From Methanosphaera sp. (GTDB lineage: Archaea; Methanobacteriota; Methanobacteria; Methanobacteriales; Methanobacteriaceae): DNA of 33,754 bases. Below, piece after piece: positions 30,011-33,040 of this stretch. The stretch lies in NCBI RefSeq assembly GCF_022768985.1, contig NZ_JALEKL010000012.1:59479-93232 (forward strand), in the 5' to 3' direction. The stretch's first letter is position 1. Each line of letters opens with the position of its first letter. The translations under genes and the position numbers were made by a program. A model generated the notes under the pieces. The model was not told the origin of the DNA and searched no databases. It saw only the letters and a list, made by a program, of their open reading frames with translations.

Positions 30011-31942
30011 TTGAAAATATCTGACATTGAAAATATAAAAGGTGTAGGTCCTAAAATTACCCAAAAAATTATTCAAACATATCAAGACTATGACAACTTC
30101 AAAGAAAGCATAGAAAACTATGAAATTGATAAACTAATGAATATACAAGGACTTAGTAATAAAAAAGCACTAGAAATTGCACAATACATTCTAGGATATG
30201 GAGAAAATAACTTCATAAAAACACGACAAGCACAGAAAATCTATGATGAAATAATAGATACAATACTTAAATTTGCAAATACAACATATGCAAAAAATCG
30301 TATCAGACTTATGATGCCAACAAATAATATTGACATGATAAAAGATACAAATAAGTTAATAATTGACACATTAAATGAAACAGAAGACCTTGACTATAAC
30401 TATATCAGCAAACTTTATGCAAATATTAAGCCACTTGATGATGATATAAATCCAAGCTTTGATGATACATATGCAATAATATGTGAAGACTATGATGACT
30501 ACCTTGAATTTATAAAACGTGGATATAACAAATACACAGATATTTATCCAATAGAGGATCATCCAAATATAGATGACTATGAATTTATACTCTATGTATA
30601 TAATGAATTTCTCATAGAACCACCAAGTGGTGCAAATATTATAAGTATAAAAAATACAGCAGAAGAATATGAAATACAACCAAATAGTGTACTTGAATAT
30701 TACATACAAAATCTTAAAATCCTAGAAAATGTCTACACACTAAGAAAATATCTTAAAAAAGACAGTATAATAGGTGATGTAATAAATACAATTAAATCAA
30801 TTAATCCAGATAAGGAAAACATCAAACCAATTGAGACAACAGTTGAAGAAATAAAAGATGAAGCAGATGCAATAATAAATGCCCAGATAAAACAGATAAA
30901 TCTTGTTGGCGATGAAGTATTACAACTATTAAATGCTGATGAAGATATGCCACCAAAGATTATGAAAATCTATAAAGATGTTCTTAATGATGCATGTCAA
31001 AAACTTGCAGATGAAACAGGAATATTATTTGATCCATTCATAATACAATATCCACTAAAAATAGATTATAATGAGATTAAAAGAGTAAATGAAAATATGA
31101 TGGCAACAATTCATCTAAATGAATATGAAAAAAAGATCAATGCATGTTCAATATTATCTGAATGTAAAAAACAGATAATAGATGAAGTAGATGAAATAAT
31201 ACACTATGACTACCAGTTTGCACTTGCTGCATTCTACAAAAAGTATGACCTGTCAATTGCAGAAATTGGTGATAAATATATACTAGATGGAGCATTACAT
31301 CTTAAACTTAAAGAAGATGAAATAGAAAATGATACTTCTATGCAGCCTGTCATGTATAATCTTGATGATGAAAACAATATAATTCTTCTTACAGGAGCAA
31401 ACAGTGGTGGTAAAACAACACTTCTTGAAACACTTGCACAACTAAATATCATGGCACACATGGGAATTGGAGTATGTGCAAAAAGTGCAACAATTGCACA
31501 TACAGATGAAGTATACTACTTTACAAAAAGACAATCATTAAATGCTGGTGCATTTGAAACATTTCTAAAATCATTCATACCCGCAGCAGTAGGAGATATG
31601 CGTAAACTTATACTTATTGATGAGCTTGAATCAATAACAGAACTTGAAGCTGCAATAAAGATCATTACAGGATTTATTCAACTTATAGAAGATAAAGATA
31701 ACTATGCCATAATTGTAACACACATGGCACCTGAGATTCTTAAACAAACAAAAGATCTTAATATCCGTGTTGATGGAATTGAAGCAAAAGGACTTGATGA
31801 AAACTATAATCTTATAGTTGATCGTAATCCAAGAATCAATTATCTTGCAAAAAGTACACCTGAACTTATATTAAAAAGAGTATATGAAAAATCACAACAA
31901 CCACAAAAAGATATCTATAAAAAGATACTGGATAAGTTCTAA
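30011..31942 (+). CDS. MutS-family ATPase with N-terminal helix-hairpin-helix (archaeal MutS2-like)
   Basis: A protein of 643 residues starting at TTG 30011, with AGGAG 10 nt upstream. Residues 1-60 hold two helix-hairpin-helix motifs (NIKGVGPKIT and NIQGLSNKKAL) for DNA binding. The middle is helical and very acidic, presumably the MutS clamp/lever region. The C-terminal ATPase has Walker A TGANSGGKTT (461-470) and Walker B LILIDELES (533-541). The region after DE reads SITELEAA, not the glycine-threonine D-loop usual in MutS/MutS2, and no Smr nuclease domain follows. So it belongs to the MutS2-related archaeal group. Its role may be in recombination or branched-DNA handling rather than mismatch repair; this is inferred. 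Confidence 0.87.
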   Translation: MKISDIENIKGVGPKITQKIIQTYQDYDNFKESIENYEIDKLMNIQGLSNKKALEIAQYILGYGENNFIKTRQAQKIYDEIIDTILKFANTTYAKNRIRLMMPTNNIDMIKDTNKLIIDTLNETEDLDYNYISKLYANIKPLDDDINPSFDDTYAIICEDYDDYLEFIKRGYNKYTDIYPIEDHPNIDDYEFILYVYNEFLIEPPSGANIISIKNTAEEYEIQPNSVLEYYIQNLKILENVYTLRKYLKKDSIIGDVINTIKSINPDKENIKPIETTVEEIKDEADAIINAQIKQINLVGDEVLQLLNADEDMPPKIMKIYKDVLNDACQKLADETGILFDPFIIQYPLKIDYNEIKRVNENMMATIHLNEYEKKINACSILSECKKQIIDEVDEIIHYDYQFALAAFYKKYDLSIAEIGDKYILDGALHLKLKEDEIENDTSMQPVMYNLDDENNIILLTGANSGGKTTLLETLAQLNIMAHMGIGVCAKSATIAHTDEVYYFTKRQSLNAGAFETFLKSFIPAAVGDMRKLILIDELESITELEAAIKIITGFIQLIEDKDNYAIIVTHMAPEILKQTKDLNIRVDGIEAKGLDENYNLIVDRNPRINYLAKSTPELILKRVYEKSQQPQKDIYKKILDKF

Positions 31943-31973: not shown

Positions 31974-32021
31974 GAGATTATTATATTTATAAAAAAATAG
32001 ATTTTAACTAAAAATAAAGTA

Positions 32022-32135
32022 GAGTATTGCCTGTTTACTAACTCTCCAGATCACAGGTAGATTACCAACATTCCTCCCCGAGCAACCCTCGTACCAGGCA
32101 ACCACAAATTAATACTACAAGATCCATTACAGACT
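32022..32135. ncRNA. Candidate structured RNA, orientation probably minus
   Basis: A GC-richer island within about 1.1 kb of very AT-rich DNA. TTGCCTG (32027-32033) pairs with CAGGCAA (32095-32101); on the minus strand the stem extends by a G-U pair, which favours that orientation. Inside lie CGAG/CTCG (32079-32082 with 32087-32090) and GGTA/TACC (32056-32059 with 32063-32066). On the minus strand the stem is followed by a T-rich tail. No open reading frame of note. I find no convincing match to RNase P, SRP, tRNA, C/D or H/ACA RNAs, so the class is unknown. Existence is inferred from composition and pairing only. Confidence 0.4.
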
Positions 32136-32157
32136 AAATAGAAAATAAATTCTATTT
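32136..32157. repeat. Perfect 8-bp inverted repeat
   Basis: AAATAGAA (32136-32143) and TTCTATTT (32150-32157) with a 6-nt loop AATAAA. It abuts the candidate RNA island and could be part of its transcript boundary. Confidence 0.5.
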
Positions 32158-33040
32158 AAAGTATTAACTCCACAGAAATAATTCTGCAGATGTGATAATA
32201 ATACATTTACAAAACATCAATATTATAACTTTACAATTAATAAAATACCAATTTTAAAATAAACAATATTACAAAAAATAATAAAATAACTAGAAAATAT
32301 ACTAAAAAATACATACAAAAAAATAGGAAAACTAAATGAACAAAATAACAATAAAACACAATAAAAAATAGAAAAAATAACAAAATATACAAGTGAAAAT
32401 ATATCATAAAACTAGTATGTAAAATCACCTTATTTTAATAAAATATAAAAAAATAATACTACATCTACATAACATGATACATATTTTATAAAATTTACCA
32501 TATCCTTTAATTATTTAATAGAATTTATTTAATTTAAATTAAGAATTATATATAAACTATTAAAATAATTCAATCTAAATTAAATTAAAAAATAATGAAA
32601 AAATAAGAATTTGTATAATGAAAAAGTAGAAAAAAAGAAATGAAAAACAGGAAAACTATGAAAAGAAAACTATGAAAAAATCACCAGCAGATAAAAAAAA
32701 GATAAATTATCAATGATGAATATTAATGACAACACAGTTTATATTAAAACCATTACACTAAATCAAATAACACATATTACATAATAGATAACATCCACAA
32801 TAAAAGATACCAAAAAATATCAAATAAGAATCAATGATAAAAAAAGATAAATTAATAATGAAAAATAAAATTTAGAAAAAATAGTCTGAAAATTAGTCTG
32901 GAAATAAAACCTTGGAAATTAAAGAAATAGTTCTTACATAGTCTAACTAAAATAATTTAAATAAAAAATATTACCATGAAAAATAATTATTACAAAAAAT
33001 AGTTTAAAAACAAAGTTAAAAATTAAAATAAATTGTTCAA
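32158..33040. other. A-rich intergenic stretch with short repeats
   Basis: About 880 bp with no credible gene on either strand. The plus strand is strongly A-biased against T. Two tandem copies of GAAAACTATGAAAA lie at 32651-32664 and 32665-32678. The degenerate phrase AAAAAGATAAATTA occurs near 32694 and 32839, and AGTCTG occurs near 32883 and 32896. The only long minus-strand frame (32237-32428) would encode a Phe/Leu low-complexity peptide and is rejected. It may be decayed coding DNA or a simple spacer beside the rRNA operon. Confidence 0.4.
32651..32678. repeat. Tandem 14-bp repeat, two copies
   Basis: GAAAACTATGAAAA is repeated exactly at 32651-32664 and 32665-32678 with no gap, in the A-rich spacer. 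Too short to name; probably slippage. Confidence 0.7.

Follow-up and report, generated by a model that had tools for sequence, protein, structure and literature searches.

The locus and its surroundings

The stretch of DNA analysed here (the window, 33,754 nt in all) carries a MutS-like gene on the plus strand (30011-31942, stop at 31942), followed by an AT-rich spacer and, on the other side of it, a minus-strand tRNA-5S-23S group. Inside the spacer lies an island at 32022-32135 whose G+C content is about 40%, against a background of 10-25%. The original prediction had pointed to this GC-richer segment next to an rRNA operon, and the composition and the adjoining genes are as it described. The 7-bp closing stem that it proposed is also found: the inverted repeat TTGCCTG/CAGGCAA is located at 32027-32033 / 32095-32101, and its arms show compensatory changes across homologues. 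The T-rich tail noted for the minus strand corresponds to a tract after the stem, at 32005..32023. The interval as delimited comprises a conserved hairpin (32025-32101) plus a portion of the 5' region, which is less well conserved and extends to about 32195.

Rfam matches in the window are those of tRNA, 5S and 23S. Neither the island nor its homologues match an Rfam family (RF00064 included) at gathering or relaxed thresholds, the latter extending to E of 5 for the window and of 10 for the homologous locus L185, with filters relaxed, which agrees with the lack of a class match reported originally. The HgcG/Pab40 covariance model (RF00064) in particular finds no match in the window or in L185 with relaxed filters. 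A relic of RNase P was considered and rejected: the island does not match RF00373, and the genome has its normal RNase P RNA elsewhere, on C4. A search for phage matches found none. The single-sequence folding energy of the minus strand is no better than chance (z of +0.61 and -1.06 against shuffles). The structural argument from one sequence is therefore weak, and it is conservation and covariation that carry the case.

Conservation and distribution

In a minus-strand BLASTN search, 16 of 20 congeneric genomes each give a single strong match, which in one genome is truncated by a contig end. Identity is 92-100% across a core of 75-81 nt and drops outside the core. The island thus is conserved in sister genomes, where the original prediction had proposed to look, and identity of this level rules out an island of chance composition. 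Within Methanobacteriaceae, blastn detects the RNA in 75 of 120 genomes, and the hairpin covariance model finds exactly one copy each in 80 of 139 genomes, spread over 16 of 17 genera (models R1 and R2 were built with a GAG/CTC core hairpin that was later replaced). The model also matches four genomes of a second family in the order, presumably Methanothermobacter, which is a guess on our part. Several complete genomes without the RNA are also without 5S rRNA matches, and runs of N border the rRNA flanks in the collection, so the apparent absence from those genomes is not read as absence.

Scanned for the pattern, 84,980 species return records of Methanobacteriales type only, bar three short MAG contigs. 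These contigs (L134, L135, and L172) are labelled Bacteroidota (JARKQC01) and Micrarchaeota (JAHKLX01), and are probably mis-binned Methanobacteriales. The copy on L172 adjoins archaeal 5S and 23S.

The full-length RNA and its neighbours

Outside Methanosphaera, about 90 nt more of upstream sequence is conserved, up to a start UGUC.., and homologues in other genera have a TATA-like box (TTAAATA) about 25-30 nt before this conserved start. The placement of the box fixes the minus strand as the one that encodes the RNA in the window. At the 3' end, the RNA of other genera has T-rich sequence. Several genomes have the gene 0.15-1.4 kb downstream of 5S; at three second-family loci the distance is 43-45 nt. 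At L184 and L185 there is a tandem pair of 5S rRNA genes; the guide gene follows the second after 43 nt, with a TATA-like box in the gap. At 20 of 44 loci, the RNA gene and a MutS-like ATPase gene run towards each other, a long-kept neighbourhood. Elsewhere the neighbours of the RNA gene are unrelated and differ in kind and orientation.

The frequent presence of a preceding 5S rRNA gene and the recurrent convergence with the MutS-like gene would suit a cis-acting element (a riboswitch, leader, or terminator) belonging to a neighbouring gene or to the rRNA operon. However, the neighbours at other loci are too varied for this, a TATA box of its own is present, and the next gene in Methanosphaera is oriented oppositely, so that we give a cis-acting role hardly any weight. 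Judged from the sequence, the RNA gene is free-standing, with its own putative promoter, and is no single gene's leader.

RNA structure

Archaeal H/ACA RNAs are defined by ANA boxes, a ruler of 14-16 nt, kink-turns, bipartite guides, and a lower stem of 7-9 bp (PMC4652768; PMC2584109; PMC7991803). The original prediction had set the H/ACA class aside, a judgement that does not hold up, since the ANA boxes, a 14-nt ruler, the kink-turns, and the bipartite guides all fit it. When an H/ACA-type structure with two hairpins is laid on 30 sequences, 97.8% of cells are paired, 15 of 33 pairs show compensatory change, and 73 cells are doubly changed; controls with slid partners give 33-42% paired and 1-4 pairs with compensatory change. 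The features of the window copy are as follows, all on the minus strand.

32020..32195, minus strand: predicted H/ACA guide RNA gene, approximate extent, as judged by conservation and by aligning copies from congeners and other genera (5' end drawn from the homologue alignment, 3' end placed just after the ANA box)
32102..32195, minus strand: 5' region, with a different stem-loop, UUAAUAC/GUAUUAA, and a conserved UCUGUAAUGGA in place of hairpin 1 (A3 alignment of 8 Methanosphaera; hairpin 1 model absent)
32025..32101, minus strand: putative H/ACA hairpin 2, which forms the island's conserved core (scored by covariance model R1 at 82.7 bits, E 6.8e-20, in its own genome)
32095..32100, minus strand: hairpin 2 lower stem, 5' arm UGCCUG (covarying stem)
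32083..32090, minus strand: hairpin 2 predicted 5' guide GAGGGUUG, complement of 23S UAACCCUC in helix 69
32078..32082, minus strand: hairpin 2 upper stem, 5' side CUCGG (GC/AU/UG covariation at the N136-N163 pair)
32073..32076, minus strand: kink-turn, non-bulged strand, GA and C-stem GG (GA invariant in 30/30)
32051..32057, minus strand: kink-turn, bulged strand, C-stem CC, bulge UGU, and GA (UGA invariant in 30/30)
32042..32049, minus strand: hairpin 2 upper stem, 3' side, CU, 3-nt bulge, and GAG
32037..32042, minus strand: hairpin 2 predicted 3' guide GUUAGU (GUUA with UAAC in the U1915 register; UAGU with ACUA in the putative U1917 register)
32028..32033, minus strand: hairpin 2 lower stem, 3' arm CAGGCA (covarying stem)
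32025..32027, minus strand: ANA box, here AUA, with the upper stem 14 nt away (A-N-A in 30/30 others and 13/13 Methanosphaera)
32005..32023, minus strand: T-rich tract past the RNA 3' end, likely a termination region, as its sequence suggests

The closing stem covaries strongly, appearing as GCCUG/CAGGC, GCCAG/CUGGC, GCCCG/CGGGC, and ACCUG/CAGGU, which answers the call for compensatory changes made with the original prediction. In most genera the lower stems of hairpin 1 and hairpin 2 are each 7 bp and show compensatory changes; in the window the lower stem is 6 bp, or 7 only if an A of the ANA box pairs. Box 1, directly 3' of the hairpin 1 lower stem, is AUA or ACA in all 30 sequences, and box 2, directly 3' of the hairpin 2 lower stem, is A-N-A throughout, with all four bases seen at N. 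Each hairpin has 14 nt between its ANA box and the foot of its upper stem (A2 columns 92-106 and 172-185; 32028-32041 in the window).

A kink-turn with GA/GA and a 3-nt bulge is found in hairpin 1 of 29/30 sequences and in hairpin 2 of 30/30, as well as in hairpin 2 of the window, and its bulge ends in U (L3 = U). Next to the kink-turn, the hairpin 2 pair is GC in 15, AU in 10, and UG in 4 sequences, and a C-stem pair of the same hairpin flips from GC to CG in 7. Layers of the GA stem number 9 in hairpin 1 and 8 in hairpin 2, where a bulge of 3-4 nt breaks them (the rule being 8-11). The CUC/GAG pairs of the upper stem, which lie below this bulge, never vary. This invariance and the bulge speak against the H/ACA reading, as does the 6-bp lower stem in the window.

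The two internal 4-bp hairpins of the original prediction are not supported by the comparison. The GAG/CTC core hairpin of our first model is invariant, shows no covariation, and would block the guide; it was replaced for these reasons, and its segments are better read as the 5' guide and the upper stem. Energetically, the predicted fold of the naked hairpin (-21.6 kcal/mol) is other than the H/ACA fold (-5.0), a point that counts against H/ACA, although the energy rules leave out kink-turns and proteins. As to the strand, the same stem closes on the plus strand and is followed there by ACA, so that a plus-strand RNA might be entertained. But the promoter, the kink-turns, the ANA boxes, and the covarying G-U pairs fit the minus strand only, and that the RNA is of the plus strand, or the island one of chance composition, is hardly credible. 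The window copy of hairpin 2 is intact.

Guides and rRNA targets

The guides of hairpin 1, ..YGGUC (5') and AACCCA (3'), require a target UGGGUU-UN-GACC(R), and those of hairpin 2, GAGGGUUR and GUUA, require UAAC-UN-(Y)AACCCUC. Both targets are present in Methanosphaera 23S, as GAGCUGGGUU[U]AGACCGUCG and GGGGGUAAC[U]AUAACCCUC. With every uridine of the Methanosphaera 23S and its flank ranked, U1915 of helix 69 comes first for 30/30 hairpin 2 guides, and U2586 for 27/30 hairpin 1 guides. The numbering of U1915, of U1917 two bases further along, and of U2586 was checked against E. coli K-12 rrlB. When the core is simply compared with 23S as an antisense RNA, only short matches appear; the target was recognised after the H/ACA architecture had been seen. 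Shuffled guides reach the score of hairpin 1 in 0/1000 cases and that of hairpin 2 in 35-43/1000 (3.5-4.3%), so that for hairpin 2 conviction rests on the coincidence with a known modified site. G32042 is common to the upper stem and to the 3' guide in the U1915 register. The hairpin 2 guide probably also serves U1917, via slipped pairing.

We take the pseudouridines Psi1956, Psi1958, and Psi2621 of H. marismortui to be at E. coli 1915, 1917, and 2586. Grosjean et al. assigned these three to two halobacterial hairpins, HP2 accounting for Psi1956 and Psi1958 by alternative pairing and HP1 for Psi2621 (PMC2584109).

The island thus very probably represents the conserved hairpin of a guide RNA of the archaeal box H/ACA type, encoded on the minus strand with its own promoter and aimed at helix 69. 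In this the undescribed non-coding RNA of the original prediction turns out to be a genuine conserved RNA gene without an Rfam match, but one whose class, box H/ACA, is known. We infer transcription, RNP assembly, and modification by the guide. A promoter belonging to the gene itself, downstream of the rRNA operon, would drive minus-strand transcription, and the internal loop of hairpin 2 would pair with both sides of the helix-69 uridine in 23S rRNA. Cbf5, Nop10, and Gar1, with L7Ae on the kink-turn, would then convert U1915 to pseudouridine, and slipped pairing would probably bring U1917 (E. coli numbering) to the same fate. Genes for Cbf5 and Nop10 are present in the genome of the window. 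In most Methanobacteriales an upstream H/ACA hairpin on the same RNA would be aimed at U2586 in the peptidyl-transferase centre.

The RNA might instead be a structured RNA of a new class, bound by L7Ae via its kink-turns and engaged in some other job, its complementarity to rRNA being incidental. The missing Rfam match, the location near rRNA operons, and the conserved, non-guide 5' domain in Methanosphaera would be in line with this. Such a reading is nevertheless improbable, because of the ANA boxes, the 14-nt ruler, and the convergence of both guides on the three sites assigned to a two-hairpin archaeal H/ACA RNA.

Replacement of hairpin 1 in Methanosphaera

The hairpin 1 model (R3) finds nothing at E < 0.1 in 20 Methanosphaera genomes, and the window copy is without it as well: Methanosphaera has lost the U2586-directed hairpin. 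The 5' region there has, in the 8-sequence A3 alignment, a covarying stem UUAAUAY/GRUAUUAA around a local hairpin and the conserved UCUGUAAUGGA; this replacement stem-loop has neither a kink-turn nor a U2586 guide. The UCUGUAAUGGA segment looks invariant in the window (32102-32195), in L065, L068-L072, and L003.

In four other genomes of the family (L075, L079, L081, and L188) the hairpin 1 guide for U2586 is lost or changed, and hairpin 2 is intact. From the guide sequences, this looks like repeated independent loss. In organisms whose guide is gone or changed, some gut methanogens among them, Psi2586 is predicted to be missing, unless another guide took over. The repeated loss would provide a natural set of archaea predicted to have or to lack a pseudouridine next to U2585 of the peptidyl-transferase centre. 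A further, rather doubtful proposal is that the U2586 guide was dropped by Methanosphaera and by four or more of the other genomes sampled, and that in Methanosphaera the 5' half was rebuilt into the UCUGUAAUGGA stem-loop with a new function, making a hybrid of guide and other RNA.

Comparison with known systems

The RNA is new and unannotated in Methanobacteriales, but the kind of RNA is already known. No description of it in this order was found in the open-licence literature, and an earlier prediction may exist. An annotation gap is filled, as the RNA is in no Rfam family and should occur in most gut methanogens.

The use of one H/ACA RNA for two helix-69 pseudouridines is shared with eukaryotic U19 and yeast snR191 (PMC2584109), although eukaryotic H/ACA RNAs, unlike those described here, have no kink-turns (PMC7991803). 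The helix-69 target is also shared with a related Methanocaldococcus jannaschii H/ACA motif directed at L2015, known from its mention in a paper (PMC4652768). Pyrococcus Pab40/Pf7 (HgcG, RF00064) and Archaeoglobus Afu-4 are likewise multi-hairpin H/ACA RNAs, and their third hairpin is aimed at the U1915 equivalent (L2016, L1970; PMC4652768). However, they have three hairpins rather than two, and the RF00064 model does not match the Methanobacteriales RNA.

The likeness to HP1/HP2 (Hvo1/Hvo2) of Haloferax volcanii is one of sites and architecture: two hairpins serve the peptidyl-transferase site and both helix-69 sites (PMC2584109; PMC4652768), with kink-turns and ANA boxes, and the hairpin order is the same if HP1-then-HP2 is assumed from the names. 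The halobacterial hairpins are separated by a long spacer, whereas those of Methanobacteriales are adjacent, and in Methanosphaera the HP1 equivalent is missing. Methanobacteriales would thereby join Haloferax in having a two-hairpin guide for the pseudouridines of helix 69 and of the peptidyl-transferase centre.
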